Of a stretch of 64,000 nucleotides of DNA, positions 35,725 to 55,492 are shown piece after piece. Position numbers and translations under genes: made by a program. This stretch comes from Ignavibacteriaceae bacterium (lineage in GTDB: Bacteria > Bacteroidota > Ignavibacteria > Ignavibacteriales > Ignavibacteriaceae), in contig JACZKK010000206.1 of NCBI GenBank assembly GCA_014860115.1, positions 1-64,000 of the forward strand, read 5' to 3'. The notes below the pieces were generated by a model. The model was given only the letters and a program-made list of their open reading frames with translations. It searched no databases and was not told where the DNA came from. Position 1 is the first letter of the stretch. Each line of letters begins with the position of its first letter.

Positions 35725-37035
35725 ATGTCTGGATTAAAAGAAAAACTCGGAAAGAAAATTGAGGAATGGCGTCCTCGGACAACACGGCTTATTAAAGAAT
35801 TCGGCAATGTAAAAGTTGACGAAGTAGATATTGGACAAATTATTGGCGGGGCAAGAGATATTAAAAGTTTGGTTACTGATATTTCTTATCTCGATCCGTT
35901 TGAAGGAATTCGTTTCAGAGGATTAACAATTCCCGAAGTAATGGAAAAACTACCGAAGGTACCCGGCGGAGAAATGCCTTATGTGGAAGGTTTCTTCCAT
36001 TTTCTGTTGACAGGAGATATTCCTTCTGAAGCCGATGTAAAAGAGGTTGCAGAGGAATTCAAAAAAAGAAGTGCTATTCCGAAATATGTATTTGATATTC
36101 TGAAAACTATGCCAACGGACTCTCATCCGATGGTAATGTTTTCAACAGCGATTCTTGCTATGCAGCGGGAGTCAGAATTTGTTAAACAATATAATTCGGG
36201 TAAACTCAAGAAGAACGATTACTGGGTTCCAACGCTTGAGGATGGATTACAGCTTCTTGCAAAGATACCAGGCATCGCGGCTTTCATCTACAGATTAAAA
36301 TACAAGAACGGACAGATAATTGAGTCCGATCCAAAGATGGATCTTGGCGGAAACTTTGCTCATATGATGGGTATCGCTAAACCTTATGATGATGTTGCAA
36401 GAATGTACTTCATTTTACACAGCGACCACGAAAGTGGAAACGTAAGTGCACACACAGGACATCTTGTAGCAAGCGCATTATCTGATATGTACTACTCAAT
36501 TTCTGCAATGACAAACGGACTTGCCGGTCCATTGCACGGACTCGCTAACCAGGAAGTTTTAAGCTGGCTGCAGGGAGTCTATGATAAGATGGGCGGAAAA
36601 ATTCCAACCGAAGAAGAGATGAAACAATTTGTTTGGGATACACTAAAAGGTGGTCAGGTTATTCCAGGTTTTGGACACGCTGTCTTAAGAAAAACCGATC
36701 CACGTTATATGGCTCAACGTGAATTCTGTCTTAAGCATTTACCAAAAGATCCATTATTTATTTACGTTGATCTTTTGTTCAAAGTAGTTCCACCAATATT
36801 GCTTGAACAGGGTAAAGCAAAGAATCCGTGGCCGAATGTTGATGCACAATCCGGTGTTATCCAATGGTACTATGGATTGAAGGAATATGACTTCTACACA
36901 GTTCTGTTTGCTGTTGGAAGAGCACTCGGTGTTGTTGCTAACATAATTTGGGATCGTGGACTTGGTTATCCGATTGAAAGACCGAAGTCAGTGACAACTG
37001 CAATGCTTGAAGAAGCTGCAGGGATAAAGAAATAA
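35725..37035 (+). CDS. gltA: Citrate synthase, mitochondrial-type
   Basis: Condenses acetyl-CoA and oxaloacetate to citrate. Catalytic residues are visible as His in GPLHGLANQE (near 271), His in GFGHAVLRKTDPRY (near 318) and Asp in NVDAQSGV (near 372). The N-terminal DISYLDPFEGIRFRGLTIPE and GFFHFLLTGDIPS are of the eukaryotic-type branch found in Bacteroidota, Chlorobi and mitochondria rather than the E. coli type. Length 436. AAAGGAG site. Ends at repeat copy C and a bidirectional terminator. Confidence 0.95.
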   Translation: MSGLKEKLGKKIEEWRPRTTRLIKEFGNVKVDEVDIGQIIGGARDIKSLVTDISYLDPFEGIRFRGLTIPEVMEKLPKVPGGEMPYVEGFFHFLLTGDIPSEADVKEVAEEFKKRSAIPKYVFDILKTMPTDSHPMVMFSTAILAMQRESEFVKQYNSGKLKKNDYWVPTLEDGLQLLAKIPGIAAFIYRLKYKNGQIIESDPKMDLGGNFAHMMGIAKPYDDVARMYFILHSDHESGNVSAHTGHLVASALSDMYYSISAMTNGLAGPLHGLANQEVLSWLQGVYDKMGGKIPTEEEMKQFVWDTLKGGQVIPGFGHAVLRKTDPRYMAQREFCLKHLPKDPLFIYVDLLFKVVPPILLEQGKAKNPWPNVDAQSGVIQWYYGLKEYDFYTVLFAVGRALGVVANIIWDRGLGYPIERPKSVTTAMLEEAAGIKK

Positions 37036-37048
37036 AATTTCATTCTTT

Positions 37049-37075
37049 GTAGCACAGATTAATAATCTGTGCTAC
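37049..37075. repeat. Dispersed palindromic repeat, copy C
   Basis: Perfect palindrome GTAGCACAGATT/AATCTGTGCTAC with central AAT variant, 13 bases after the citrate synthase stop and 13 before the terminator. Confidence 0.85.
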
Positions 37076-37087
37076 AGTTTAAAATAT

Positions 37088-37117
37088 AAATGCCATCCTG
37101 GTTGGATGGCATTTTTT
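37088..37117. terminator. Bidirectional terminator between gltA and the DUF1501 gene
   Basis: Ten-base perfect stem AATGCCATCC / GGATGGCATT, five-base loop, seven T on the plus strand and an A/T-rich side for the minus strand. Serves the convergent genes gltA (+) and DUF1501 (-). Confidence 0.92.
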
Positions 37118-37136
37118 TCAATCAACTTAAATTCGA

Positions 37137-38663: not shown

Positions 38664-38678
38664 AATTTCTCTTTCTGA

Positions 38679-40055
38679 TTATGAAAGTTGATATTCTGAT
38701 AATCTCATTAATGCTTTAAAGAACATCTTTAACCTGTTCTCAGCCTGAGGATCAGCAGTTGACCAATCATAGACTTCAGCACCATCGAGTAAAGTATTTA
38801 GTAAATATTCCTTCCTGTTTTCACTTAACGGATACTGAAGGAATATTTTTGAAATGTCATTAATCAGTTGAACTGCATCTTCGGCACTGGGAAAAGTTCG
38901 TGCATATTCAACAAGATTCAATTGAAATGTTAAATCTCCTCCACCGGGCTTTTTGCCATTTATTACGGCATCGGTAAAAATATTTCTTGAGGGAAGTGTT
39001 GTTGTGTTAATCCAGATTTTATCTCCGTCCCAGCCGCTAACATTCGGCGGTGCAAATAGTTCCTGCTTTAATTGAGTTGCAACTGTGCGCATATAAACAT
39101 AATCCGGTGTCGCTACATTGAATTGTCTCATCGTTCCAATCATTAACTCAACGGGACTCTTTATTTTAGCTCCTCTTACTTCATTTGTATGGAACATAAC
39201 CGATTTCAATAAAGTGGATAAGACGGGTTTAATCTCATAGTTATTCTCTCTTAATATTTGAGCCATAGTTTCAATACTTGGTTCGTCGTGAGCAACATGC
39301 ATAAATTCATTATATAACTCCCTGCAGAAAAATGTAGCCGTGGCGGGTTGAGTAAAAATTATATCAACAATATCATTGTAAATGAAATTACCAGTCTGCC
39401 CTAAAAATGTTTTAGTTCCGTCATCAAAACGACCTGCGTTAAAGTAAGAGGTAATCCCATCTACCTGCCAGCCTGTTAAAGCTCTCGCTCCTTCCTGAAT
39501 ATCCTGCTCAGTATAGTTTCCAATACCAAGCGTGAATAATTCCATAAGTTCTCTCGCATAATTTTCATTTGGGTCACCTTTCCTGTTCCTTGTTCCGTCT
39601 AGATAAATAAGCATTGCTGGATCAATCGTAATAGCTTTTGTTAGATTGATAAGATTTCCCATTGCATAGTCACGGAATAATTTATTCTGCCAGTACATCC
39701 TTTGTGCCAGACCAACTTTTGAAACTTCACTTACGTAGTGATTATGCCAAAACAAAACCATCTTTTCACGAAGAGAATAACCTTGTGTAACCATTAGATT
39801 ATACCACCAGTAAATCATTTCTCTGGTTCGTTCAGTATTGTTTTCGTTAGTTGGATCGTTTACCCAAAAACCGGGCTGTGGCGGTTCAGGTTGATCGGCA
39901 AGAAGGAAGTTATCTACAAAATTATCCAGCGAATGAGATAACGCAAATTCAACATCCTGTTTGTTGTATCCAAAAAGTGTTCTTGCCAGAATGTGCCGTG
40001 CGGCTTCTTCATCCCAAACATTTATCTTGTTAAAATTGTTCGCGTTTTCTATCAT
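38679..40055 (-). CDS. DUF1800 protein, partner of DUF1501
   Basis: 458 residues of mostly helical sequence. Family hallmarks: EEAARHILARTLFGYNKQDVEFAL, WYNLMVTQGYSLREKMVLFWHNHYVS, DGTRNRKGDPNENYARELMELFTLG and ARALTGWQVDG, then APPNVSGWDGDKIW. No signal peptide is evident in this start, unlike most relatives, so export may rely on partner or another mechanism. Always found together with DUF1501; the function of the pair is unknown. Confidence 0.9.
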   Translation of the reverse strand: MIENANNFNKINVWDEEAARHILARTLFGYNKQDVEFALSHSLDNFVDNFLLADQPEPPQPGFWVNDPTNENNTERTREMIYWWYNLMVTQGYSLREKMVLFWHNHYVSEVSKVGLAQRMYWQNKLFRDYAMGNLINLTKAITIDPAMLIYLDGTRNRKGDPNENYARELMELFTLGIGNYTEQDIQEGARALTGWQVDGITSYFNAGRFDDGTKTFLGQTGNFIYNDIVDIIFTQPATATFFCRELYNEFMHVAHDEPSIETMAQILRENNYEIKPVLSTLLKSVMFHTNEVRGAKIKSPVELMIGTMRQFNVATPDYVYMRTVATQLKQELFAPPNVSGWDGDKIWINTTTLPSRNIFTDAVINGKKPGGGDLTFQLNLVEYARTFPSAEDAVQLINDISKIFLQYPLSENRKEYLLNTLLDGAEVYDWSTADPQAENRLKMFFKALMRLSEYQLS

Positions 40056-40583
40056 AGTGCCTCGCTTAGTTTGATTAGAAATTTCTTTGGTAGCGCTAAG
40101 ATATCTTTAAATAGTATGCCAAAAACTAACATTTGATATTTCGCAACTATCCAATTTCCAGTAATTATTATAAGCTATTTGCTTGTAAATATTTAGCCAT
40201 TAATGAACAAATTACCGGGTCTAATATAGCGTCAATAATTGTGTCGCTCCTGAATAAAATGTCGCTTAAAATGACGCAGTTTGGTTAGAAGGTAATTAGA
40301 ATTTATCAGAGAAGACAGTGAGTCAGGAGGACTAAGTTCTTTTTATAAAATTTTGTCGTGAAATAGTAGGATCGTGTGATACTTATCAAAAAGAAACAAT
40401 TGCTCATCTTGTAATATTACAGGCACATTATAAAAAATTAAATAGAGTATAGAGAAGTTTTTCACTCCTATATTACATGCGAATTGATTAATTTTATACT
40501 TAATGTTTTTCATAAAAATTATGAACAAAATCTACTTCCCATTACCAATCTGTCCATGCAAACAAATCAAATGTGAGTTACTG
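40056..40583. other. Divergent intergenic region before the efflux operon
   Basis: About 530 bases between divergent genes without convincing ORF (ORFs of 61 aa and the N-terminal extension at 40503 are unsupported). It holds TGTAATATTACA, a perfect 12-base palindrome, at 40410-40421, and a cluster of TGTCGC / GCGTCA-type half-sites at 40228-40277. Both look like operator sequences and are listed as findings. Confidence 0.4.
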
Positions 40584-42002
40584 ATGAAAAAGTGTTTATC
40601 ATTTATATCCATAATTATTTTTTTGCTTCCGGGAATTATATCTGCTCAGTCACAAACTTTAACTCTTGATGAGGCAATCCAGATAGCCTTAGAAAACAAT
40701 ACTGATATAAAAGTTGCCAAAATGAGCACAGATAAATCCCGTGCGGCAGTCAGAGAAGCCTTTGGTTATGCAATGCCAAGCCTCGATCTTTCGGCTGACT
40801 TCTCTCATTTTCTAAAAAAACCAAAAATGGCTTTCCCTGATTTTGGCGCTCTACTTACCAACGCAACTTACAGCATATTGTTTGATGAGAATGTAATACC
40901 AAGAGATGAGAGTAAATATGTACCTGTAGAAAACACGCTTCAATCCTTCGCCCTTAATAATGCTTATACAGCTTCTTTAACGTTAACCCAGGTGCTTTTT
41001 AACTCGGCTGTATTCAGAGGTATTGGTGCCTCACAGATTTATTACGATTTATCACTAGCTGAATTGCGTAATACCATCAGCAAAACAAAGCTTAATGTTG
41101 AAAGAGCTTTTTACGGAACGCTGCTCACAAAAGAATTGCTATCGATAACACAAGCCAGCTATGAGAACGCAAAAGAAAATTTCAGAAATGTAAATGCATT
41201 ATTTGAGCAGGGGTTCGTTTCGGATTTTGACAGACTTCAGGCAGAAGTACGTGTTGAAAACATTCGTCCGGTTTTGCTGCAGATGGAAAATATGCTCACC
41301 ACAACACTTAATGATTTGAAGCTCGTACTTGGTGTTGACCAGTTTCTTGAAATTGATGTGAAAGGCGAGATAGTTTATAATCCTGAAATCTTACCGAGTG
41401 AAGACGATATCATTGATTATGCCCTAACCAATAACTTTGGTCTTCAAAGTATGAAATTAAAAATGAATCTCGATGAAGAATTTATTCAACTTGATGTATC
41501 TGAATACTGGCCCTCGTTAGCTGCATTCGGAAACTTCAGTTATGCGGGTACTTCAGACGATTGGAATTTTCAGAATTACAATGCTACTACGGTCGGGCTT
41601 AGTTTATCTATGAATTTATGGCAGGGCAACAGAACAAAAAACCGTGTTGAACAATCAACAATATCATATAAACAAACAGAAGAGCAGTACACACTTTTAA
41701 AAGAATATGTAGTCAACCAGGTCAAAGCAAAATATCTGGAGCTGAAACGCGTTCAAAGTCTCGTTGAAGCCCAGCAGAAAAATGTAAGCCTTGCAGAGCG
41801 TGCTTATGAACTTTCAACGGTAAGATATAAAGAAGGAACAGGCAATCAGCTTGAAGTACAAAATCAAGATGTTGCTCTCAGGCAGGCAAGGATAAACAAG
41901 CTTCAGTCTGTGCATAGTTATATAGTAACTAAATACGAACTTGAACAGCTAATGGGTAAAATAAATCAGGAATATATCGACCCATATATGCCGAAAGAAT
42001 AA
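40584..42002 (+). CDS. TolC-family outer-membrane efflux channel
   Basis: The track begins at 40503, but the ATG at 40584 (MKKCLSFISIIIFLLPGIISAQ) gives a proper signal peptide, so the first 27 residues are dropped. The protein has two coiled-coil repeats of the OEP family: LDEAIQIALENNTDIKVAKM and LKEYVVNQVKAKYLELKRV, YELSTVRYKEGTGNQLEVQNQDV. First gene of a three-gene RND operon; probable outer-membrane exit duct of the pump. Confidence 0.9.
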   Translation: MKKCLSFISIIIFLLPGIISAQSQTLTLDEAIQIALENNTDIKVAKMSTDKSRAAVREAFGYAMPSLDLSADFSHFLKKPKMAFPDFGALLTNATYSILFDENVIPRDESKYVPVENTLQSFALNNAYTASLTLTQVLFNSAVFRGIGASQIYYDLSLAELRNTISKTKLNVERAFYGTLLTKELLSITQASYENAKENFRNVNALFEQGFVSDFDRLQAEVRVENIRPVLLQMENMLTTTLNDLKLVLGVDQFLEIDVKGEIVYNPEILPSEDDIIDYALTNNFGLQSMKLKMNLDEEFIQLDVSEYWPSLAAFGNFSYAGTSDDWNFQNYNATTVGLSLSMNLWQGNRTKNRVEQSTISYKQTEEQYTLLKEYVVNQVKAKYLELKRVQSLVEAQQKNVSLAERAYELSTVRYKEGTGNQLEVQNQDVALRQARINKLQSVHSYIVTKYELEQLMGKINQEYIDPYMPKE

Positions 42003-42035
42003 AATTAAACGAACTCATCAGGAGTATTAACTAAA

Positions 42036-43079
42036 ATGAAGTTACAAATGAAAAACTTAAAGTCTCTGGTAATTCTTCCAATATTATTTTTTGCATTGCT
42101 TAATGGATGCGGTGGTGATGAAGAACAAGCAAAGAGCATGGATCAAATCCAGCAGGAAGAAGGAGTGCCGGTTCAAGTGAAAACGGTAGAATACAAACCA
42201 TTTGAAAAATATATGAACTACTTCGCAAAACTTGCCGGAGTAAAAGAGGCAACCAAAGGGGCTGCATTCGGTGGAAAGATTGAAAAGATAAATTATAGTG
42301 TGGGTGATTATGTTGAAGAAGGACAGGTCGTAGTGGAATTTCCTTACGATGATCCCGGTTCACTTTATGAAACTGCAGCCGCAACTTATGAAAACTCAAA
42401 GAGAACTTACGAAAGATCAAAAGTACTTTTAGATGCCGGGGAAATAGCACAGGCAAACTTCGATGGTGTTGAAGCACAGTACCTGGTTCACAAAAGAAAC
42501 TACGAACTTGCGCGCAAGCTTATTTTTATAGAAGCTCCTTTCAGCGGAACGCTGGTGGATGTAAAAGTTAATGTTGGTGATAACGTAAATAAAGATGCTC
42601 CATTATTTACCATTGCCCAGCTTCACAAAATGAGAGCAAAAATATGGGTTACAGAAAAAGAAATTGGTGAGATAAAGCAAGGAATGGAAGCAGAGATGGA
42701 GTTCGGCGGAAAAGTTTTTAAGGGAAAAATCGCTGAAGTCTCTATGGCAGTCGATCCTTACAAGCAGGCAATCTTCGCAGAAGTAGAATTTGATAACTCA
42801 AAAAAGGAATTAAAAAGTGGTGCAACAGTTGAGATAAAAGTTCTTATCTACAAGAACCCAAAAGCGATCACCATTCCCCGCAATATTGTAATGTCAGATG
42901 AAAACGGTCAGTATGTTTTTGTTGAAAAAGATAGCAAAGCTGAAAAAAGATACATCTCGAATGGTCAGGATAGCGGAATATTATATGAAATCTCAAATGG
43001 CTTGCAGGTTGGAGATAAATTAGTAACTCACGGTGCCTCTCAGTTAACAGATGGTGCAAAAGTAAAAGTGATTCAATAA
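42036..43079 (+). CDS. RND efflux periplasmic adaptor (membrane-fusion) lipoprotein
   Basis: Lipobox LLNGC anchors it in the membrane. The lipoyl/hairpin region is seen in GKIEKINYSVGDYVEEGQVVVEFPYDD and IEAPFSGTLVDVKVNVGDNVNKDAPLFTIAQ, with a short coiled-coil between (YENSKRTYERSKVLLDAGEIAQANFDG), followed by beta-barrel and membrane-proximal parts ending VTHGASQLTDGAKVKVIQ. 34 bases after the TolC gene and 10 before the RND pump. Confidence 0.92.
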   Translation: MKLQMKNLKSLVILPILFFALLNGCGGDEEQAKSMDQIQQEEGVPVQVKTVEYKPFEKYMNYFAKLAGVKEATKGAAFGGKIEKINYSVGDYVEEGQVVVEFPYDDPGSLYETAAATYENSKRTYERSKVLLDAGEIAQANFDGVEAQYLVHKRNYELARKLIFIEAPFSGTLVDVKVNVGDNVNKDAPLFTIAQLHKMRAKIWVTEKEIGEIKQGMEAEMEFGGKVFKGKIAEVSMAVDPYKQAIFAEVEFDNSKKELKSGATVEIKVLIYKNPKAITIPRNIVMSDENGQYVFVEKDSKAEKRYISNGQDSGILYEISNGLQVGDKLVTHGASQLTDGAKVKVIQ

Positions 43080-43089
43080 GGAATACAAA

Positions 43090-46000
43090 ATGTTTCTCGC
43101 TAAAGTATCCATTAACCGCCCCGTTCTTACAACAGTGGGCATAGTAATATTTCTTATCTTCGGATTGATTGCATATTTCAGATTAAACCTGAACCTTCAG
43201 CCCGATGTTGAAATTCCATACGTAACCGTACAAACTATTTATCCTGGCGCCGGTCCGAAAGAAATTGAAACTCTGATTACAAAAAGAATAGAAGATGCTG
43301 TATCTACAATAAGCCAGATTGAAAGAATTGAATCATACTCACTGGACGGCGTTTCAATAATTATAATTGAGTTCCAGCTCGGCAAAGATGTGAATGTCGC
43401 CAACCAGGAAACAAAAGATAAAGTTGATGAGATCCTGAACGACATTCCACCTGACGCTGAAAAACCTATCGTACAGAAAATTGATATACGACTCTTCCCT
43501 GTTGTTGATGTTGTATTGAGCGGTAACTTAAGTCCAAGACAACTTTTTGAAATTGCAGATAAAACTTTAAAAGACAGATTTTCACAGATAGACGGTGTTG
43601 CGAAAGTTCAGATCACAGGCGGACAGGAAAGAGAAATACGGGTTGTTCTCGATAACAAGATCGTTTATGAAAATATTATTTCACTTCCGCAGCTAACACA
43701 GATTCTCCAGGCAAATAATATGGATATTCCCGGAGGATATTTTCAGATTGGCAACCAGGAATATACTGTAAGACTTGTTGGGCAGTTTCAGGATGTAGAT
43801 CAAATAAGAGAGCTGGAAATTCCGACTGCATTTGGGCCGAAAAAGATCAGGCAGATTGCAGATGTTATTGACTCAGGGAAAGATATAAGACAAAGAGCTA
43901 CATTCTATAATGTTAAAGAAGATTTTAGAAATGAAAACGTTGTTCGTCTTGGTATAATTAAAAGCAGCGAGGGTAACGTTGTAAAAGTTGCAGAAGCTAT
44001 TCGTAGTTCACTTCCTGAAATACAGAGCATTCTGCCCGAAGGGTCAAAACTGGAAATAGTAAATGACTTTTCAGAATTTACACAGAGCAGTTTTGATGAC
44101 ACGATGAGCAACATTTATCTCGGAGTTCTTTTCACAGCAATTGTTCTGTTTTTATTTCTGCACGACTGGCGCTCCACTCTTGTTGTTGCAATGTCAATGC
44201 CCACTTCAATTATTTCTACATTTCTTTTGCTTCAAGCATTTGGTCTCACGCTGAATATGATGACGTTGATGGGACTATCAGTCTCGGTGGGCGTGCTTGT
44301 TGCGAACTCTGTTGTTGTGCTCGAAAATATTTTCAGGTATAAGAAGCAGGGCGAGACTATAAGACAGGCAGCATACAAAGGGACTTCAGAAGTTGGAGTT
44401 GCTGTGCTGGCTTCAACATTAACTAACATAGTTGTGTTTCTGCCAGTTGCAAATATGTCATCAATGGTGGGATTATGGTTAAAAGAACTTGCACTCGCGG
44501 CAGTGTTTGCTACTATTTTTTCTTTGATGATGTCATTTACATTAACTCCTCTTCTATCTTCTATTATTCTCTCAAAAGAACATGCTACCGGTAAGCTTGC
44601 TTCCTGGTTTAACAAGTTTGAAACAAAGCAAACGGAATTATATAAAAGGATGCTGGGTGTTGTTCTCCGCAGCAAGAGAAACAGTTTGTTAACTTTCGTT
44701 GGTGCAATAGTACTTTTCATTTTTGTTATGATGGTATTCGGACCGAAGCTTGGCTTTGAGTTTATTCCGCAAACAGATGACGGAAAAATTAATATTACAG
44801 TTGAACTTCCTTCCGGCTACAACCTTGACGAGACAGCCGGAACAGTCAGACAGATTGAAGAAAGAGTGAAGAAGCACGATGAGGTAAAACATATTCTCAC
44901 CAACCTCGGAAAGCTGAGCGATCTTGATGTGGGAACAAATATGGCAAGTATTGACGTTCAGCTTACAGATGCGAAGGACAGAGATATAAAGTTATCGGAT
45001 GTGATCTCTATTTTTACTGCGGATCTTGCAGACATACCAAATGCAAAAATTAAAGTTGATGTTGGTTCACGTATGGGTGGAGAGGAAGCACCAATTCAGT
45101 TTTTCCTTCTCGGTCAGGATCTTGATGAGCTTGAGAAACTTAAAGATGTGGCTATTGAAAAATTCAAAGATGTACCGGGTTTGATAAATTTTGATAACAG
45201 CTCACGCGCAGGTAAACCTGAAATTACAGTTTATCCAAAAAGAGAAAAGTTAACAGAGGTTGGACTAACAATAACTGATCTTGCTTTTACACTTCGTGCA
45301 GGAATTGAGGGAATACAATCGGCAAAGTACCGTGAGTTTGGAGATGAGTACGATCTCACCGTAACTCTTGACGATGAATCAGTGAACACACCAGAGAAGG
45401 CTGGTAATATAACTGTTGCATCACGGAATGGTTCTTTCCGTCTGGCCCAACTTGCCGATGTTAAATTCACAACAGGATTCACTAAAATTTTACACAGAGA
45501 TAAATTCACCTCAATTATGTTTACGGGTGCTGCTGCACCGGGTTTTCCTCTGGGTAATGTTACGGGCGAAATAGAAAAAAGATTTGATGAGTTAGAACTG
45601 CCGACAGGTTATTATTTCAGATGGGGCGGCAACGTAAAGATGATGAACGATATGATCCAGGATATGATCTTCGCATTTTTCCTTGCTGTGCTTTTAACTT
45701 ATATGCTGCTCTCAGCAATACTCGAAAGTTTCTGGCAGCCGATAATAATAATGACTACTGTAGTTTTGGGATTGCTCGGAGTTATTCTGGCATTGTTCCT
45801 AACTAACACCGCTTTCAGCATTACATCATTGATGTCTATCATTATGCTGATTGGTATTGTGGTTAACAACGCTATTCTTATTCTTGATTATACAAACCAG
45901 TTGAGAAGAGAGCAGGGATATACGCCGAAGGACGCCTTGATGGAAGCCTGTCCGATTAAACTGAAGCCACAGTTGATGACATCAATAGCAATTATACTTG

Positions 46001-46173
46001 GTATGCTTCCGCTTGCACTTGGTATTGGCGACGCAGGTAAAGAAATGAGAATGCCGCTTGGTATAGTTGCAATCGGCGGATTGATTGCTTCTACTATATT
46101 AACATTATTTGTAATTCCGGCAATCTATTACCTGACTTCAAAAGCAAAGTCGGTTGTAAGAGAAATAGTTTAG
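43090..46173 (+). CDS. RND efflux permease with atypical TM4/TM10 residues
   Basis: 1027 residues with the AcrB-type plan: TM1 TTVGIVIFLIFGLIAYF, a large periplasmic loop, TM2-6, TM7, a second loop, TM8-12. Family motifs such as PDVEIPYVTVQTIYPGAGPKEIE and NVANQETKDKVDE are normal. The proton-relay positions are not: in GVLVANSVVVLENI residues 405-406 are A-N where AcrB has D407-D408, and in GIVVNNAILILDY residue 926 is N where AcrB has K940; T964 in LMTS is kept. Third gene of the operon, followed by a GC-rich hairpin terminator. Confidence 0.93.
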   Translation: MFLAKVSINRPVLTTVGIVIFLIFGLIAYFRLNLNLQPDVEIPYVTVQTIYPGAGPKEIETLITKRIEDAVSTISQIERIESYSLDGVSIIIIEFQLGKDVNVANQETKDKVDEILNDIPPDAEKPIVQKIDIRLFPVVDVVLSGNLSPRQLFEIADKTLKDRFSQIDGVAKVQITGGQEREIRVVLDNKIVYENIISLPQLTQILQANNMDIPGGYFQIGNQEYTVRLVGQFQDVDQIRELEIPTAFGPKKIRQIADVIDSGKDIRQRATFYNVKEDFRNENVVRLGIIKSSEGNVVKVAEAIRSSLPEIQSILPEGSKLEIVNDFSEFTQSSFDDTMSNIYLGVLFTAIVLFLFLHDWRSTLVVAMSMPTSIISTFLLLQAFGLTLNMMTLMGLSVSVGVLVANSVVVLENIFRYKKQGETIRQAAYKGTSEVGVAVLASTLTNIVVFLPVANMSSMVGLWLKELALAAVFATIFSLMMSFTLTPLLSSIILSKEHATGKLASWFNKFETKQTELYKRMLGVVLRSKRNSLLTFVGAIVLFIFVMMVFGPKLGFEFIPQTDDGKINITVELPSGYNLDETAGTVRQIEERVKKHDEVKHILTNLGKLSDLDVGTNMASIDVQLTDAKDRDIKLSDVISIFTADLADIPNAKIKVDVGSRMGGEEAPIQFFLLGQDLDELEKLKDVAIEKFKDVPGLINFDNSSRAGKPEITVYPKREKLTEVGLTITDLAFTLRAGIEGIQSAKYREFGDEYDLTVTLDDESVNTPEKAGNITVASRNGSFRLAQLADVKFTTGFTKILHRDKFTSIMFTGAAAPGFPLGNVTGEIEKRFDELELPTGYYFRWGGNVKMMNDMIQDMIFAFFLAVLLTYMLLSAILESFWQPIIIMTTVVLGLLGVILALFLTNTAFSITSLMSIIMLIGIVVNNAILILDYTNQLRREQGYTPKDALMEACPIKLKPQLMTSIAIILGMLPLALGIGDAGKEMRMPLGIVAIGGLIASTILTLFVIPAIYYLTSKAKSVVREIV

Positions 46174-46322: not shown

Positions 46323-49300
46323 ATGGAAGATAAACGAACACCGCTGACTATTGCTGAAGGAATATTAGATAACATCATTTCAATCGCTGATAAGTTTATA
46401 ACAGGACTAACTTCCTTCGGAAAGAAAGATATCAGCGAACAGCTTGAAAGTTTTGCCGAAACTCTAAAGCAAATTCCGCTTGAGAAAAGGAGCTTGTCAA
46501 AAGAAGAAGGAGAAGCTCTGCTGAAAATTTTCATTGCCGCTGCACAACCTGAATTTGCAAAACGATTTATGGGTGAAGTTGATGCACAGGTTTATTTTGC
46601 TTTCGGAACTTTCCTCAACGAGCAGCTTACTAAAGGTCAAAAGATTGAAAGACTCACTCACGAATATTTGAACTTATTCCGATTTCCTTCCCTGCTTAGA
46701 AGAATCTATGAGGAGAAAAGTTGGGAGCCACTAATTCACGAATTGGTAGTAAAGAGTAATTTCAATTTAAATATTCTTTTCAGCCAGCGATTGAGAGATT
46801 ACGGAAAGATACCGCTATTCAAAGTCATCAATGGAAATACGGTCACTGAGTATAGCTGGGAGAAATCTGCATCGATTATAAAAAGCTACCGCCGCGCTCT
46901 TTACTCATTTACTACTAAAGAGTCCAAGGTTGCTTTCCTGCTGGAGAATTGTGTTGAGATGGCTCTGCTCGATCTTGCCTGCCTCACTGGTGGAATTGTA
47001 AATGTGATGATACCGGGGAATTCTGTTACCGAACATATTCGTTTCATTCTTAAGCAAAGTAAAGCTTCAATTCTAATTGCTCATAACGAAAAGCAACTTT
47101 CAAAAATTAAATCATTAAAGAATGAGCTGCCAGAGCTTAAGACTGTAGTTCTTCTTGAAGGAAATTCAAGCGAGAATTGGGTTATCAGCTTCGACGAGTT
47201 TTTAAAGTCTGGTAAAGAACCTGAAAGTGAATTTGAAATCGGGATGAATGAACTTGCTACAATTATGTACACTTCAGGAACAACCGGTGAACCCAAAGGG
47301 ATAATGTTCTCACAGATGAATATTGTTTACAAAAGATTTTGCCGTGCTATGGCAATTCCAGAAATTGGTGAGGAAGATCGATTCATTGCCTTCCTTCCGC
47401 TTTATCATACTTTCGGCAGATATCTTGAAATGACGGGCTGTGTTTTCTGGGCTGCAGAATATTGTTTCCTCGAGAACCCTTCTGTTGAAGCGATGATTTC
47501 AAATATGCAGCTTGTAAAGCCGACAGTGTTCATCAGCATTCCCAAAAAATGGATGCAGCTTTATGAATACATCACCAGCAAGGTTGACATTGAAGTTGAC
47601 GATCATCAGAAAATAAAAAGTGAACTCGACAAAGCAACTGGCGGTGAATTGAAGTGGGGACTTTCTGCTGCTGGTTATTTACCTCCCGATATTTTTATGT
47701 TCTTCCAGAAATATGGTGTTGAATTGATGAGTGGATTTGGCATGACCGAAGCAACCGGCGGAATAACAATGACTCCGTGGAAAAGATACAAACCCAATTC
47801 TCTCGGCAAACCTTTACCGGGGATAGAAATAAAACTTGGGGATGATGGTGAAATTCTTGTTAAAGGTCCTTATGTGATGCTCGGTTACTACGATACACCA
47901 AACAGCGAAACATTCACTGAAGATGGCTGGCTTCCGACCGGCGATGTTATGAAAATGGATGAGGATGGTTTCATTCAAATCATCGACAGGAAAAAAGAGA
48001 TATATAAAAATATAAAGGGAGAAACCATCGCTCCACAGAAGATTGAAAACCTTTTCCGTGACTTTGAAAATATTAAACAGGTTTTTTTAGTCGGTGATCA
48101 CCGTCAGTTCAATACAGTTCTTATTCATCCGAACTATGAAGACAAAAGTTCACCTTTGCACGATATGGATGAAAAGCAGAAGCAGGAATATTTTTCTTCG
48201 CTTATTGTAACCGTCAACAAATTCCTCGCACCTTTTGAACGCATTCTTGATTTTAGATTTATTGATAGACCATTTGATGACCAGCACGGTGAACTAACTC
48301 CGAAAGGAACATACAAGCGAAAAGTTATTGAGAAAAATTTCTCTGAACTGATTGAGTCGATGTATGTTAAAAATGATACGAGCGTTTATGCCGGCACAAC
48401 TGAAGTTAAAATTCCAAATTGGTTTTTAAGAGAGAAAGGCTGCCTTGGCAGAGACATAGTCGCAAATGAAAAAGGTATCGCAATACCAAAACTCAAGCTA
48501 TCATTAACACTTTATAAGACTGACGACAAAAATATTTTCCGCATCGGCAGCTTTAATTATTTCATAAGCTCACACCACATAGATTTTCAGGTGCTTCTGA
48601 TTGATCCGCTGTTATGGGTTGGCAACAATGAGTTGACTGCATTCACAGGAAGTTCAATCATTCAATGGCACAGACAAATAAGAGAGTCTGTTCAAATCAG
48701 GTTTAATTCAATTGCCGATAAAACTAAGTTAAAAGAGAACGAACTGAAGCAATTTGAAAAAATTTCATCCTCATCAGAATATTCTCTTCAGGGAATTCAT
48801 TTAGCTTATGCGATGTTCTTATCGGATGATATAAGCACATCGCTTGATTATTTTAATAAGATACTGGATGATCCCAAAAACACACACTATCGCCTGGTGT
48901 TCAATCTTCTTTCAAGACCTGCAACAACATCGAGCATTGAATTAAAACGAAAACAATTTGCCTCAATAATAAAAGGCGCTGATGAAAGAAAATTCGGTGA
49001 GCTGTTTAATTCATTTATTGGAGAAGATAAGCACCTTCTCAACTCCGAACTCGCGCATTACATCGCTGTCAATTCAAAAGGTGAAAAAAGATTAGATGCC
49101 ATCGAGCTATTCATTTCAAATGAAGTTAAGCAGTTAAGCGTAGATGATCCGCTGGATCAAACAAACTTCGTCCATTTTTTTGAACTGATCACAGCTTACG
49201 GAATTACACATCCTCAACTGTTCAGAAGGATTAGAAGATATCTTATGAGATTTGCTGCACTTGAAGAAAATGCCGGAATTAAAAAACTCGCCGATGCAAG

Positions 49301-51140
49301 TCTTGATGCTCTGGTTGTTGGATTCAGAGAATGGCTTGGCATTAATCAGAAAATAGCGGTTGATCTCGAAACCAGTGAGGAGTACACGTGGGAAGATGTT
49401 ATTGCCTTCGAAGAAGGTATTGATCCTGAGGACAGACAGAGAACGAAAAATGCAATTTCGAAAACGGCCGTTTTAAGAGAAGCTGTGTTTATGTTTTCAA
49501 AAGGATTGCTGATCAGGCTTGATGACATATTGCCGGGAGGAATCTGGATTAGTCAACTCGAATCACGAAATAATAAATCTGTTTATAGGATAACTGTTCA
49601 AACAAGATTCCAGGGAGCATTTGATTTTTCACTGCATCTGAACAGAAATCTTCCGCCTGCAAAAGTCAAAGAAGAAATTAAATGGCTCATCCTCGGAGGG
49701 ATGAACAAAAAAGGCGAACGACTTCTTCCCCACTTTGGCGGATACTGGGAAGAATATGAATTGTGGACAGAAGCTTTTGTACCAAGAGACAGCGTTGCAC
49801 GGTTCATCGAAAAAGAAAATAAGAAAAATGATGAAGAGGCCAGACAGCGTCTGCGCGAGCTTTGGCCGCACTTTGTATGGAATACTACTTCGGCATATAT
49901 GAATTTCTGGACAGTTACCAATTACAAAACTCAGCTTACTAACCCACACCCCGAAAATATTACAGTCCCAACACACGATTATCAGACAGGCACATTACTT
50001 TATTCAGTATCAAAGCGTATTAGTTCAGATTCACCAAAAGATTTCTTCGTGAACTTTCATAATCTTTTCATAAAAGATACTCTTGAGAAATATTCCTTCC
50101 TAGATAAGAAATCAATATGGAATTATATCTTTTCAGGGGTAACTGAGTGTGAGGGAGAATCAAAATCAATCGAACTAATAAAAAAATTCACAGAAGAGAT
50201 AAGAGCTGACAACAAGATAGATAATAAGGACGAAATTCTTTATAGAGCAGCAGAGTATATTAAAAGTGTTTCAAATGACGGATTTATTCCTAAAAATTTA
50301 TTCTTCGCAATAAAAAGATTCCACCGATGGAGAGCATTAAACCAGGATGCGGACATCAATGCACAAGCTCAGATGCTTTATGAACTTTACGAAACATATC
50401 AGCTATTTGACTTTGAGAAAGAATACATCACGGCGCGACCTAAGTTTTTCCTCAATACTGCTTTCGCTGAATCTTCTGATACAATTAAATCTGCTTTGAG
50501 TGATATAATCAAAAAGCAGCGTTCCGGTGAAGTAAATGCTGAAAAATCGCAGCAGCTTTATTCAGAATTACTTTCATTACCGAATCTCAGTGAAGATGAA
50601 AAATTCTTTTTGACCAGGTTGAATTATCCCTATTTAAAGCCGAAGGATACAGCTGCATTAATACGCTCGGAAAGTTTTGGTGCGGATGCATCCAATCTTG
50701 TAGTTCAGCTTGCTGATGAAGAGGGAAATCCATTTTTAATCCGCAGCCCGATTTCTCCAAAGGAAATATCCAGGCTGCACTCTTTATTTTTGGATTCCAA
50801 TCTTATAGTTAATTTCAGACCCGAACACCGATTCCTTGTCGCACTTTCTGAAAGGGGATTTATTATCGGCGGTTTGTTTTATGAAATGACTGATGAGCAG
50901 ACTGTGCATATGGAAAAGATAGTAATATCCACCCGTTACAGAAGAACGGGCATAAGCGAAAATTTAATGAATGAATTTCTTAAAAGATTGAAGAGCGAAC
51001 ACATCAGATATGTTACAACCGGTTTCTTCAGACCGGAATACTTTTACAAGTTCGGATTTAAGGTTGAAAAGAAATATTCGGGGCTGTTCTTGGATTTGCA
51101 AAATTTTAGTGAAAAAGTTAAAACTGATATTCCTAAATGA
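46323..51140 (+). CDS. Giant acyl-CoA-ligase / unknown / GNAT fusion protein
   Basis: 1605 residues, no signal. About 1-170: helical region of unknown type. About 180-690: AMP-binding acyl-CoA ligase with TIMYTSGTTGEPKG (near 312), GFGMTEATGG (near 472), TGDVMKMDEDGFIQIIDRKKE (near 538) and the C-terminal Lys motif TPKGTYKRKVI (near 659). About 700-1440: no recognised domain, largely helical. About 1440-1595: GNAT acetyltransferase with VISTRYRRTGISENLM, where RRTGIS aligns with the acetyl-CoA-binding R/QxxGxG/A site. No Shine-Dalgarno site. Starts a four-gene operon. The substrate is not known; a lipid or amine acylation is plausible. Confidence 0.75.
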   Translation: MEDKRTPLTIAEGILDNIISIADKFITGLTSFGKKDISEQLESFAETLKQIPLEKRSLSKEEGEALLKIFIAAAQPEFAKRFMGEVDAQVYFAFGTFLNEQLTKGQKIERLTHEYLNLFRFPSLLRRIYEEKSWEPLIHELVVKSNFNLNILFSQRLRDYGKIPLFKVINGNTVTEYSWEKSASIIKSYRRALYSFTTKESKVAFLLENCVEMALLDLACLTGGIVNVMIPGNSVTEHIRFILKQSKASILIAHNEKQLSKIKSLKNELPELKTVVLLEGNSSENWVISFDEFLKSGKEPESEFEIGMNELATIMYTSGTTGEPKGIMFSQMNIVYKRFCRAMAIPEIGEEDRFIAFLPLYHTFGRYLEMTGCVFWAAEYCFLENPSVEAMISNMQLVKPTVFISIPKKWMQLYEYITSKVDIEVDDHQKIKSELDKATGGELKWGLSAAGYLPPDIFMFFQKYGVELMSGFGMTEATGGITMTPWKRYKPNSLGKPLPGIEIKLGDDGEILVKGPYVMLGYYDTPNSETFTEDGWLPTGDVMKMDEDGFIQIIDRKKEIYKNIKGETIAPQKIENLFRDFENIKQVFLVGDHRQFNTVLIHPNYEDKSSPLHDMDEKQKQEYFSSLIVTVNKFLAPFERILDFRFIDRPFDDQHGELTPKGTYKRKVIEKNFSELIESMYVKNDTSVYAGTTEVKIPNWFLREKGCLGRDIVANEKGIAIPKLKLSLTLYKTDDKNIFRIGSFNYFISSHHIDFQVLLIDPLLWVGNNELTAFTGSSIIQWHRQIRESVQIRFNSIADKTKLKENELKQFEKISSSSEYSLQGIHLAYAMFLSDDISTSLDYFNKILDDPKNTHYRLVFNLLSRPATTSSIELKRKQFASIIKGADERKFGELFNSFIGEDKHLLNSELAHYIAVNSKGEKRLDAIELFISNEVKQLSVDDPLDQTNFVHFFELITAYGITHPQLFRRIRRYLMRFAALEENAGIKKLADASLDALVVGFREWLGINQKIAVDLETSEEYTWEDVIAFEEGIDPEDRQRTKNAISKTAVLREAVFMFSKGLLIRLDDILPGGIWISQLESRNNKSVYRITVQTRFQGAFDFSLHLNRNLPPAKVKEEIKWLILGGMNKKGERLLPHFGGYWEEYELWTEAFVPRDSVARFIEKENKKNDEEARQRLRELWPHFVWNTTSAYMNFWTVTNYKTQLTNPHPENITVPTHDYQTGTLLYSVSKRISSDSPKDFFVNFHNLFIKDTLEKYSFLDKKSIWNYIFSGVTECEGESKSIELIKKFTEEIRADNKIDNKDEILYRAAEYIKSVSNDGFIPKNLFFAIKRFHRWRALNQDADINAQAQMLYELYETYQLFDFEKEYITARPKFFLNTAFAESSDTIKSALSDIIKKQRSGEVNAEKSQQLYSELLSLPNLSEDEKFFLTRLNYPYLKPKDTAALIRSESFGADASNLVVQLADEEGNPFLIRSPISPKEISRLHSLFLDSNLIVNFRPEHRFLVALSERGFIIGGLFYEMTDEQTVHMEKIVISTRYRRTGISENLMNEFLKRLKSEHIRYVTTGFFRPEYFYKFGFKVEKKYSGLFLDLQNFSEKVKTDIPK

Positions 51141-51204: not shown

Positions 51205-51933
51205 TTGAGCAGAGAAATACACCGCTGGTTTAGTCCAAACCTAAATAAAGATATGGATCTTGTCGTATACGGACATTACGGTTTTGCATTGTTAATGTTC
51301 CCAACAGCAGCAGCAGATTTTTTGGAATATGAGCGCTTCCAGCTGATTGACACCATCGGTTGGTTCCTTGGTGAAGGCAAGTTAAAAGCTTTTTCAATAA
51401 ACAGCATTAACAATGAAAGCTGGCTTAACAACAATATGCATCCGGCAGATAAAGCAATTCGTCATCAGCAATACAACCGGTACGTGGTTGAAGAAGTAGT
51501 CCCTTTTATCCACAATCATAGTAAAGGACTTGTACCAATTATTACAACCGGTGCTTCTCTTGGTGCATTGCATGCAATTAACAATTTTCTCAGAAGACCT
51601 GATATTTTTTCAGGTACGATAGCAATGAGCGGAAGTTACGATTTGAAGTATTACAGCAAGGGTTACTTTGACGAGAATGTTCACTTTAACTCCCCCGTTC
51701 ACTATTTACCAGGCTGGGGTGATGAATCTATGCTGGAGAAAATGCGTAAAGGAAAAATTATTATTGCATCAGGCCAGGGAGACTACGAAGATCCAAATGC
51801 ATCGAGAAGATTATCTGATATTTTACATTCAAAGGGAGTTAACCACTGGCTGGATTTATGGGGACACGATGTGAAACATGAATGGCCAACCTGGAGGAAG
51901 ATGCTTCCATATTTTTTGAGTAAGTTTAATTAA
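51205..51933 (+). CDS. Esterase-D-like alpha/beta hydrolase
   Basis: 242 residues. Nucleophile S118 in TTGASLGALHA (GxSxG); acid region SGQGDYEDP and base in WGHDVKHEW. The family (esterase/antigen-85-like fold, PF00756-type) hydrolyses acyl esters, including S-formylglutathione and siderophore esters. No signal peptide, so cytoplasmic. The start is TTG with a GGAGAG site; no near ATG. 64 bases after the ligase gene. Confidence 0.8.
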   Translation: MSREIHRWFSPNLNKDMDLVVYGHYGFALLMFPTAAADFLEYERFQLIDTIGWFLGEGKLKAFSINSINNESWLNNNMHPADKAIRHQQYNRYVVEEVVPFIHNHSKGLVPIITTGASLGALHAINNFLRRPDIFSGTIAMSGSYDLKYYSKGYFDENVHFNSPVHYLPGWGDESMLEKMRKGKIIIASGQGDYEDPNASRRLSDILHSKGVNHWLDLWGHDVKHEWPTWRKMLPYFLSKFN

Positions 51934-51961: not shown

Positions 51962-52588
51962 ATGATTACCTGGAAGTCCTTTCTAAAAGATAAAAAAAAC
52001 TTAACTGAATTTGTTATTACGGCAGTAGTTGTAACTGGGGTAATAATAGCTTTCTCACATTTTCTTCATTTTGTTGAGCAGAGAGAAGGAGTAGTATTAA
52101 ACGATCCATTTCTGAACACTTTTAATCCAATTGACCTGACCTGGTTAACTTTTGTATTAATCTATCTCTCATTAATTATTTTTGTTGTCACAACGTTTAA
52201 TAAGCCGGATAAGCTTTTAATAGCATTTCAAGCTTATGGTTTGATGCTAATCTTCAGAACAATTGCAATGTACCTTACCCCCTTTGAAGCCCCCGAAACA
52301 ATACTCCTGCTTAACGATCCTTTTGTTCAGTTTTTTGCAAAAGGAGATATTCTCACTAAAGATTTATTCTTCTCCGGTCACACCGGAACGTTATTCCTGG
52401 TATTTCTTCTCGCAGAAAATAAAACACTGAAAACTATTTTTTTAATATTAACACTACTGGTTGGATCTGCGGTTTTACTGCAGCATGTTCACTATTCAAT
52501 AGATGTTTTTGTGGCGCCGTTCGTTGCTTATGGTGCATATAGAATCATAAAAAAATTACACATTAAGATTTCTAAAGAAACTAAATAA
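51962..52588 (+). CDS. Membrane PAP2_C-type protein resembling sphingomyelin synthases
   Basis: 208 residues with about six transmembrane helices and a short N-terminal segment. The active-site motifs of the sphingomyelin-synthase/PAP2_C group are present: DLFFSGHTGTL (H140) and HVHYSIDVFVAPFVAYGAY (H177 and D181), matching the H-H-D triad and the known forms CGD-x3-SGHT and HYTxDVxxAY. SMS enzymes transfer phosphocholine or phosphoethanolamine to ceramide or diacylglycerol; the bacterial substrate is unknown. 28 bases after the esterase gene. Confidence 0.75.
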   Translation: MITWKSFLKDKKNLTEFVITAVVVTGVIIAFSHFLHFVEQREGVVLNDPFLNTFNPIDLTWLTFVLIYLSLIIFVVTTFNKPDKLLIAFQAYGLMLIFRTIAMYLTPFEAPETILLLNDPFVQFFAKGDILTKDLFFSGHTGTLFLVFLLAENKTLKTIFLILTLLVGSAVLLQHVHYSIDVFVAPFVAYGAYRIIKKLHIKISKETK

Positions 52589-53209: not shown

Positions 53210-55492
53210 ATGGCATTTCTAAATTCTAAAAAGCTTAAAGATCTCCAATCAGAAAATGAAGAGCTCAAAGCATTCATCCAAAGTATAACTGATAAAGAAT
53301 CCCACTTCCGTCAGCTCGATGAACTGCTAAGAAAAGCCAGAGTTGAGTACGCCAACATCACGATAAAAAAAGACCAGACAGTATTAACACTCGAACACCT
53401 CGAAAAAGAGAAAATCAAGCTCAATAACCAAACACAAAAACTTTCCAGTGAAATTGAACAGCTTCGGGAGATGAAGGTCTATGAGCAAAGCCAGATTCAT
53501 AAACTAAGCAGCAATTCAGCAAATCAGCCTAATAAAAATGAAATGGGAATAAAATTTCCTGTATATAAAGAAATTGAGCTGGCTGAAAAACGAAAAAAGG
53601 AACTTGAAAATGAAACCATTGAAATGGAAAAAAGATTTCGAGAGGTTTATCAGAGAGTGCTGCATGTGGAAGGAATGGAGAAGAGTTTAGATCTGAAAAT
53701 TAAAAAGAGAAAAGAAGAAATAAATTCTCTTAATGAAAGAAAGAATGAATTTGGTAAAGAGCAATTGAAAAATTTTACCAGTAGAATAACATCCCTGAAG
53801 GACAATGAGAAGCGAAATCTTCTTGAAATAAAGCAAAAGATACAACAGCTCTCTGACCGTGAGACCGAGTTAAACAATAAATTGCAAATTCGTAACAGAG
53901 AATTACAGGAAATAGAAAATAAAATTAGGCAAAAAAGATCGATCAGCGGAGAAGAAGCCGGTAGTAAATTACTTTCTTTAATAGCTGAAGAGCAGAATCT
54001 CCTTGATTCAATTGAATTAAAAAAGAAATCTCTTTCTGAGCTGGAGGGATCAATTCTTTCACTTAAGGCAGAACGAAATAAAATTACAGACGAAATTAAT
54101 CGAGTTGATAATGCATCAAAGAGTGATAAGTTAAAATTTGAAGATGAGACTGCCGGATCAAAATTAGCACCTGCGGAAATACTACATTTTGAAAAAGAAG
54201 CTAATACAATACAGGGAGTAATTAAGGCGTTAAAAGAAGAAGAGCAAAAGATCAGGACATCAATTGAACAACTTAGTCAATCAGAGGGACTTAAGAGGAG
54301 ACATATCTCGCAGTTAAATGATGAGCTTTCTTCAAAAGAAATTCAGTTTGCTTCTCTTGAAAAGGATTATGGAACAAAGTCCAGCAGATTAAATGAGATA
54401 TCGTTCAAGAATAAACTCATACTTGAGGAGTTAGCTACCAAGACGAATGAACTTTCATTGGCAGAAAATACTCTGAAATCAAAAACCAGTAGGCTGAACG
54501 AACTCACTGGTGAACTAAACCACGTAGAAAAAAAACTAATCAATGTTAAAAGCGAATTGTCAGAAAAGGATTATGAAAAATCCGAGATTGAGGAAAAGAT
54601 TAAAAGCGCCAGTGATAAATGGATAAAGCTTGATGATTACTATAAAAAAATAAAAGATGTTGTCCCTTTGCTGGAAAAAAGAAAGGACGAAATTCAGCTA
54701 AGCAATAGTATGTTCGAGAAACGCTTTTCCGATATGTTCAAGCATTACAGTACGCAAATGGGCGAGATGTATAAAAAGAAAAACCTTTTGGAACAGATGC
54801 TCATCAAAAAAGAGCATGACGTAAACGAAAAAGATCAAGCGCTGCTGGATAAGTTAACGGCTCTTGATGAAGCTGAAAAAGTTCTTTCTATCCGACAAAC
54901 CGAAGCCGAATCAATTGAAAACTTATTGAAAACAATTAATGAACAAAAGGAATTGCTTGCAAGTGAAATCACATTATTAGAGAACAGGAGTGTTGAAAAG
55001 AAAATTCAGAACAAAGAACTAACTATTGAAAGCGAACTTTACCATAAAAAATTAGTTGAGTTTGAAAATGGACTAAAAGAACTTTTCCATAAGTCAGAGG
55101 AGCGTTTTAGCAAAAACACCGAGCAAAAGACCAGGCTGGAAAGTGAAATAAGGGAGTACGAGCACAGGCTTAACGAATTGAACAGGGGCATCAAGGATTC
55201 AATAGAGGAGCATTTAAAACTCCGAAGTACTATTAGCAAAATAAAAATTGAACACGAGGAACACCGGTTAGCAATAAATAAATTAGCTTCGGTTAAGAAG
55301 AAACTCGAAGATGAAATTAACAAGCACCAGGTGGTAATAGATAAATACACAAAGATAAAAGAAAAGATAAGGCAGGAACAGAACCTGATTAAGATGAAAA
55401 GAGAACTTTTTGTGTCAAATAAGTCCTCCAACCAAAGCGACGAAGAGCAAAAAACTTTTAATCCTTATAGCCCAAATTGGATTAAGCTCTGA
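53210..55492 (+). CDS. Long coiled-coil protein, no nucleotide-binding motif
   Basis: 760 residues almost completely coiled coil: charged heptads from residue 8 to about 735 with only a few breaks (for example SNSANQPNKNEMGIKFP near 110 and ASKSDKLKFEDETAGSKLAP near 310). No signal peptide, no transmembrane segment, no Walker A or B motif, so it is not an SMC or Rad50 ATPase. The last residues SPNWIKL form a short non-coiled tail. AAGGAAG site before the ATG. A structural or cytoskeleton-like role is possible; nothing in the sequence proves it. Confidence 0.75.
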   Translation: MAFLNSKKLKDLQSENEELKAFIQSITDKESHFRQLDELLRKARVEYANITIKKDQTVLTLEHLEKEKIKLNNQTQKLSSEIEQLREMKVYEQSQIHKLSSNSANQPNKNEMGIKFPVYKEIELAEKRKKELENETIEMEKRFREVYQRVLHVEGMEKSLDLKIKKRKEEINSLNERKNEFGKEQLKNFTSRITSLKDNEKRNLLEIKQKIQQLSDRETELNNKLQIRNRELQEIENKIRQKRSISGEEAGSKLLSLIAEEQNLLDSIELKKKSLSELEGSILSLKAERNKITDEINRVDNASKSDKLKFEDETAGSKLAPAEILHFEKEANTIQGVIKALKEEEQKIRTSIEQLSQSEGLKRRHISQLNDELSSKEIQFASLEKDYGTKSSRLNEISFKNKLILEELATKTNELSLAENTLKSKTSRLNELTGELNHVEKKLINVKSELSEKDYEKSEIEEKIKSASDKWIKLDDYYKKIKDVVPLLEKRKDEIQLSNSMFEKRFSDMFKHYSTQMGEMYKKKNLLEQMLIKKEHDVNEKDQALLDKLTALDEAEKVLSIRQTEAESIENLLKTINEQKELLASEITLLENRSVEKKIQNKELTIESELYHKKLVEFENGLKELFHKSEERFSKNTEQKTRLESEIREYEHRLNELNRGIKDSIEEHLKLRSTISKIKIEHEEHRLAINKLASVKKKLEDEINKHQVVIDKYTKIKEKIRQEQNLIKMKRELFVSNKSSNQSDEEQKTFNPYSPNWIKL

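Follow-up and report, generated by a model that had tools for sequence, protein, structure and literature searches.

A gene in the window (the whole 64,000-nucleotide stretch of DNA that we analyzed) encodes a three-part protein in which an AMP-forming acyl-CoA ligase and a Gcn5-like GNAT domain are joined by a middle region of some 750 residues. The protein is conserved as one unit in several phyla, and its gene is linked to genes for citrate synthase or homocitrate synthase. The best explanation, to which we assign a rough probability of 0.35, is that it is a PatZ-like protein lysine acyltransferase that would act at the (homo)citrate synthase node, with its ligase and a pseudokinase-like part of the middle region in regulatory roles.

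46323..51140, plus strand: whole open reading frame, ligase, middle and GNAT, 1605 residues (ATG start, no internal stop, full-length relatives)
46323..46817, plus strand: N-terminal extension, residues 1-165 (no Pfam family, poorly conserved)

The original prediction of a single 1605-residue chain running from ligase to GNAT is borne out: the open reading frame is uninterrupted, the strand opposite 46323-51140 is rich in stops, Pfam domains are present at both ends, and there are dozens of full-length relatives. A library search with the entire protein assigned no Pfam or NCBIfam family to residues 690-1490 or thereabouts. Because the full-length three-part protein occurs in dozens of independent genomes, a fusion created by chance or by assembly is excluded. 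Pairwise identities among relatives co-vary between ligase and GNAT (r = 0.97) and between the kinase-like part of the middle and GNAT (r = 0.92), the helical region being the least conserved part. The full-length architecture of the relatives and the co-varying identities of the parts thus indicate, at the level of sequence comparison, that the fusion is old and stable.

Searches for homologs of the middle, which had been proposed as a means of tracing its taxonomic spread, recovered it from multiple phyla and, in every complete homolog, within the full three-part protein. With the middle alone as query, 21 of 41 close relatives proved to have the gene, as did 17 of 297 genomes drawn from the whole phylum. 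Scanning GTDB contigs for a pattern yielded 71 loci, mostly from Ignavibacteria-type metagenome-assembled genomes (MAGs) but also from Calditrichota, KSB1, Anaeromyxobacter and Sandaracinus (Myxococcota), Krumholzibacteria, Zixibacteria, Gemmatimonadetes (Gemmatimonadota), Bacteroidales, and one Acidobacteria MAG (MAG taxon labels are those deposited). Profile searches added 25 of 195 genomes of the phylum of Anaeromyxobacter and 22 of 40 genomes of the Calditrichota phylum, all with full-length proteins. Complete copies are almost all 1,500-1,690 residues long and are co-linear, the middle occupying a constant position; a few frames are shorter, owing to the end of a contig or an apparent frameshift. 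A Krumholzibacteria copy (L122) has 16 stops in the matched frame and is a degenerate gene, a frameshifted one, or the product of poor assembly. No stand-alone middle domain was found among the roughly 580 genomes searched. A weak match in genome G178 (E = 4e-4, 27% identity over 145 residues) was set aside as chance, since it overlies an unrelated MBL-like open reading frame on the opposite strand and was not found again alongside the gene family. We found no description of a ligase-middle-GNAT fusion in the open-licence literature searched.

The acyl-activating and acyl-transferring ends

46911..47891, plus strand: AMP-binding (ANL adenylation) domain, residues 197-523 (Pfam PF00501, E = 2e-58)
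48012..48371, plus strand: AMP-binding C-terminal domain, AMP-binding_C_3 (PF23562), residues 564-683 (Pfam E = 1e-12)
48288..48320, plus strand: A10 region GELTPKGTYKR, residues 656-666 (alignments to a stand-alone ligase and a carboxylic acid reductase; residue counts)
50700..51092, plus strand: GNAT domain, Gcn5-like, residues 1460-1590 (Pfam; family profile against the PDB)

Ligase motifs had been placed at residues 312-670 and a GNAT signature near residue 1538, in agreement with our assignment of A3 through A10 to residues 317-666 and of RxxG to residues 1540-1543. Motifs A3 (TSGTTGEPKG, 317-326), A5 (470-477), A7 (TGD, 539-541), and A8 (555-563) are nearly invariant in the relatives, as befits an ANL enzyme. 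The nearest NCBIfam models were those for long-chain-fatty-acid--CoA ligase, FadD11, and carboxylic acid reductase, but none of the NCBIfam models listed, these three included, scored above its own cut-off; sequence matches in the PDB (luciferases, carboxylic acid reductase, and acyl-CoA ligases) cover the ligase part only. Stand-alone ligases are also encoded in the genome that carries the fusion gene, and one of these, a long-chain ligase, is 31% identical overall to the ligase of the fusion.

The A10 region departs from the ANL pattern. In an ungapped alignment of the stand-alone ligase from the same genome with the fusion (GEITPSLKIKRK against GELTPKGTYKRK), and as judged by residue counts, the canonical A10 lysine column corresponds to T663; all 58 aligned relatives have Thr or Ser here, so that the lysine characteristic of ANL ligases is missing from that position. 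Two residues upstream, K661 is invariant (58 of 58), and the same T663/K661 pattern was seen in 37 of 40 loci from a separate search. From the sequence it would appear that either K661 substitutes for the A10 lysine or adenylation is impaired. With its ATP-binding motifs and K661 invariant, the ligase may have remained active, and the channeled activation and N-acylation within one chain that was originally envisaged is possible. In type I and type II Pat proteins, however, the synthetase domain is inactive and works as a sensor, of acetyl-CoA in the case of type I (PMC8556138), and the A10 change is suggestive, by analogy, of just such an inactive sensor.

At the other end of the protein, Pfam Acetyltransf_1 matched residues 1497-1579 (E = 4e-6). 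G1543 is present in all 58 relatives and R or Q occupies position 1540 in most, in keeping with the CoA-binding R/QxxGxG/A motif of the type I Pat/PatZ GNAT domain; F1579 is likewise found in all 58. When the family GNAT profile was compared with the PDB, the best match was Tetrahymena Gcn5 (E = 1.3e-10), the next match other than Gcn5 being at 4.6e-6. Position 1531 is Glu or Asp in 57 of 58 relatives, two residues past the column aligned with what we take to be the catalytic Glu of Gcn5. The sequence of the domain favors a protein lysine as the putative acceptor, although Gcn5 as best match is weak evidence for a protein acceptor. The host genome also encodes a sirtuin (PF02146), as do 10 of 14 control genomes, sirtuins being common.

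Might the acceptor lie within the protein itself? The GNAT domain could acetylate K661 reversibly in cis, the middle positioning the two ends, so as to yield a self-regulating acyl-CoA ligase. Acetylation of a C-terminal lysine by a GNAT enzyme is a standard means of controlling AMP-forming ligases, such as Acs (PMC8556138), and the invariance of K661, the co-variation of ligase and GNAT, and the sirtuin are all consistent with such an arrangement. But K661 is off the canonical catalytic position, and cis-regulation leaves the linkage to (homo)citrate synthase genes unexplained. We consider it unlikely.

Gene neighborhood

35725..37035, plus strand: citrate (Si)-synthase gene, separated from the fusion gene downstream by 9.3 kb and other genes
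51205..51933, plus strand: putative esterase (PF00756), next gene after the fusion gene (order conserved in close relatives)
51962..52588, plus strand: PAP2_C-type membrane protein, further downstream (order likewise conserved in close relatives)

That linkage is the strongest functional lead: two non-homologous condensing enzymes are linked to the fusion gene across phyla. At 19 Ignavibacteria-type loci, a same-strand citrate synthase gene precedes the fusion gene by less than 1 kb, and at four others a citrate synthase gene is 2-7 kb upstream. At 23 of 24 Myxococcota loci, the first gene to follow on the strand of the fusion gene, at a spacing of -9 to +33 bp, encodes homocitrate synthase (TIGR02146, with a score above the cut-off). 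Three of these 23 loci additionally have a citrate synthase gene 115-191 bp upstream on the same strand, and at the remaining locus (L195) a citrate synthase gene is downstream. KSB1 has a citrate synthase of a different family, encoded convergently at 75 bp and followed by an isocitrate-dehydrogenase-like gene, and in one Bacteroidales MAG a citrate synthase gene is convergent at 128 bp. No citrate synthase neighbor was seen in the Calditrichota loci or in most loci of the Bacteroidales/Zixibacteria/Krumholzibacteria branch, where many contigs are short, and the genome of the window has no homocitrate synthase above the cut-off. Much of the citrate synthase signal in Ignavibacteria is inherited synteny, but we rejected Ignavibacteria synteny as the whole explanation, the linkage recurring across phyla.

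In the window, an opposite-strand gene pair (37137-40055), DUF1501/DUF1800-like by eye, lies between the citrate synthase and fusion genes, and the interval 35725-46173 also contains a TolC/HlyD/RND-type efflux set. Relatives such as L057 lack both at the corresponding position, their citrate synthase gene adjoining the fusion gene, and the extra genes of the window are an apparent insertion or rearrangement. Downstream, a 760-residue coiled-coil-like protein with no Pfam family (53210-55492) keeps its position in close relatives. Melioribacteraceae have a conserved housekeeping neighborhood at loci such as L062, L069, and L070: an HpnE-like oxidoreductase gene and two squalene-synthase-like genes (HpnC/D/E-type by eye) precede the citrate synthase and fusion genes, and CTP synthase, PurN, PurH, and MreB follow. 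Upstream of the Calditrichota copies L198, L200, L208, and L214 is a recurring secreted repeat protein of 1,260-1,400 residues, beta-propeller-like by eye.

The gene context bears on two further explanations. The protein could be biosynthetic, activating a fatty acid and transferring it to the nitrogen of an amine to give an amino-acid lipid, a ceramide-like lipid, or a small molecule, with the intermediate kept bound. Its adenylation motifs are intact, its ligase is related to stand-alone long-chain ligases, and esterase and PAP2_C genes follow it in the lineage of the window. All members lack the canonical A10 lysine, however, and a middle of helical repeats and a pseudokinase-like fold would be unusual in a biosynthetic fusion. 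Moreover, the lipid-gene neighbors are confined to the window's close relatives (a sphingolipid or ceramide link based on PAP2_C was dropped for this reason), whereas the (homo)citrate synthase linkage spans phyla. The context thus favors a connection with citrate or homocitrate synthase over one with the biosynthesis of lipids or acylated amines, and N-acylation of an amine seems to us as improbable as regulation in cis. Less probable again is a long-chain acyl-CoA ligase feeding beta-oxidation, with GNAT and kinase-like parts as accessories and the proximity to citrate synthase reflecting the flow of acetyl-CoA into the TCA cycle. Such a role would suit the homology of the ligase, and the product of beta-oxidation is consumed by citrate synthase; but the tightest neighbor, homocitrate synthase, lies outside the TCA cycle, the genome already has stand-alone ligases, and the A10 lysine is changed.

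The middle region

48378..48647, plus strand: small beta domain, residues 686-775 (AlphaFold2 model; IPxWxxRxxG ... IGxxxY ... PxxWxGN)
48735..49397, plus strand: helical-repeat region, residues 805-1025 (about), HEAT-like by secondary structure of the model
49470..50357, plus strand: protein-kinase-like fold, residues about 1050-1345 (AlphaFold2 model, Foldseek, residue counts)
50358..50672, plus strand: C-terminal helices of the middle, residues 1346-1450 (AlphaFold2 model)

The long stretch between ligase and GNAT had been singled out as having no recognized domain and as a good place to look for a new one. Indeed, searches of the middle against the PDB (with a single sequence and three profiles) and against Pfam gave no significant sequence match, and it was structure prediction, as originally suggested, that revealed its organization. 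The AlphaFold2 model of residues 686-1450, built from an alignment of 58 sequences, has a pLDDT of 90.6 and shows a small beta domain, in which P, W, R, G, W, and N positions are invariant, followed by helical repeats and then a fold resembling that of kinases. In the last of these, three strands, a helix, two strands, helices, a short strand and loop, and further helices follow one another in what is, in the model, the order of a protein kinase, and the predicted fold is bilobal. Foldseek matched the whole middle best to PI3K and Vps34 and then to tyrosine kinases. The isolated module of residues 1032-1400 (pLDDT 92.1) had 578 PDB matches at E ≤ 0.001, and the best 50 listed all have the kinase fold; its top match is PsiK, a small-molecule kinase, and the highest TM score given is that to PRPK (0.61, normalized to the target). 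Because sequence identity to these matches is about 10%, the kinase label for the modeled module denotes a fold and not a family.

The residues of kinase catalysis are largely missing. With motif positions assigned by reading the strand order of the model, the equivalent of the catalytic-loop Asn (N1212) is kept in 53 of 58 relatives; only 19, by contrast, have Asp where the HRD motif would have it (position 1207), 53 have Ser in place of the DFG Asp (S1228), and among the 58 there is neither a conserved VAIK-type Lys on the third strand nor a glycine-rich loop. The VAIK Lys, HRD Asp, and DFG Asp that mark an active protein kinase are therefore not retained across the family. Of the 58 relatives, 57 retain R1089, and the same count applies to T1094, G1139, and D1219. 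We infer from the model that the kinase-like part is a catalytically degenerate pseudokinase with a conserved pocket. That the middle is instead an active atypical kinase or nucleotidyl-transferring enzyme is the least probable of the explanations considered, the retention of N1212, D1219, R1089, and T1094 (which may denote a functional pocket) and the match to PsiK being outweighed by the catalytic residues and glycine-rich loop that are missing.

A proposed PatZ-like regulator and its relation to known systems

We return to the PatZ-like acyltransferase, which is supported by evolution as one unit, the (homo)citrate synthase linkage, the Gcn5 match, a Pat-like domain order, loss of the A10 lysine, and the presence of a sirtuin. 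In this proposal the N-terminal acyl-CoA-synthetase-type module would sense or supply acyl groups, and the C-terminal Gcn5-like domain would acylate lysines of a partner protein. The helical repeats of the middle are a probable protein-binding surface, and the degenerate kinase-like fold probably binds a ligand or serves for docking. The likeliest target of the acyltransferase would be the product of the neighboring gene: citrate synthase in Ignavibacteriota, KSB1, and some members of Myxococcota, homocitrate synthase in Myxococcota. Both are condensing enzymes that consume acetyl-CoA; gene adjacency is evidence of linkage and not of target identity. Taken further, the protein may represent a class of GNAT protein acyltransferases beyond the five types described. 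A pseudokinase and an AMP-forming ligase whose catalytic lysine has moved would there govern a Gcn5-like domain, and this domain, by modifying citrate or homocitrate synthase, would set the entry of acetyl-CoA into central metabolism in several phyla; this we offer as a tentative possibility. A family spread over several phyla, with a kinase-like module that had gone unrecognized and a conserved link to (homo)citrate synthase genes, would open a testable route to how bacteria control the acetyl-CoA/(homo)citrate node post-translationally. It also extends the acyl-CoA-synthetase-plus-GNAT design of PatZ to the AMP-forming ligase superfamily.

With ANL long-chain ligases (FadD-type enzymes and the adenylation domain of carboxylic acid reductase) the fusion shares its AMP-binding and C-terminal domains and motifs A3, A5, A7, and A8, but it has Thr or Ser for the A10 lysine, a shifted invariant lysine, and the attached middle and GNAT domain. 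With Gcn5 and other GNAT lysine acetyltransferases it shares the GNAT fold signature, the similarity being moderate only. Residues 1032-1400 match the kinase fold (Bud32/PRPK, PsiK, and tyrosine kinases) in predicted structure but have no detectable sequence similarity to known kinases and lack the catalytic residues; the predicted succession of helical and kinase-like domains is that of PI3K/Vps34. The family, in multiple phyla, thus places a degenerate kinase fold between acyl-activating and acyl-transferring domains, an arrangement found in no family library or literature searched.

The closest counterpart of the whole is type I Pat/PatZ. The original prediction held that known fused systems have a different order and a shorter middle; the second part stands, as type I Pat/PatZ has no equivalent of the approximately 750-residue middle with its helical repeats and kinase-like fold, but the first does not, as type I proteins have an N-terminal acyl-CoA synthetase domain and a C-terminal GNAT domain and it is type II in which the order is reversed (PMC8556138). 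Like the fusion, type I Pat/PatZ is a large protein with an acyl-CoA-synthetase-type N terminus and a GNAT C terminus. Type I is defined by an NDP-forming synthetase domain, however, and the fusion, having an AMP-forming ANL ligase, is therefore not classed with it. By analogy, the fusion may nonetheless work like a type I Pat despite the different class of its synthetase.
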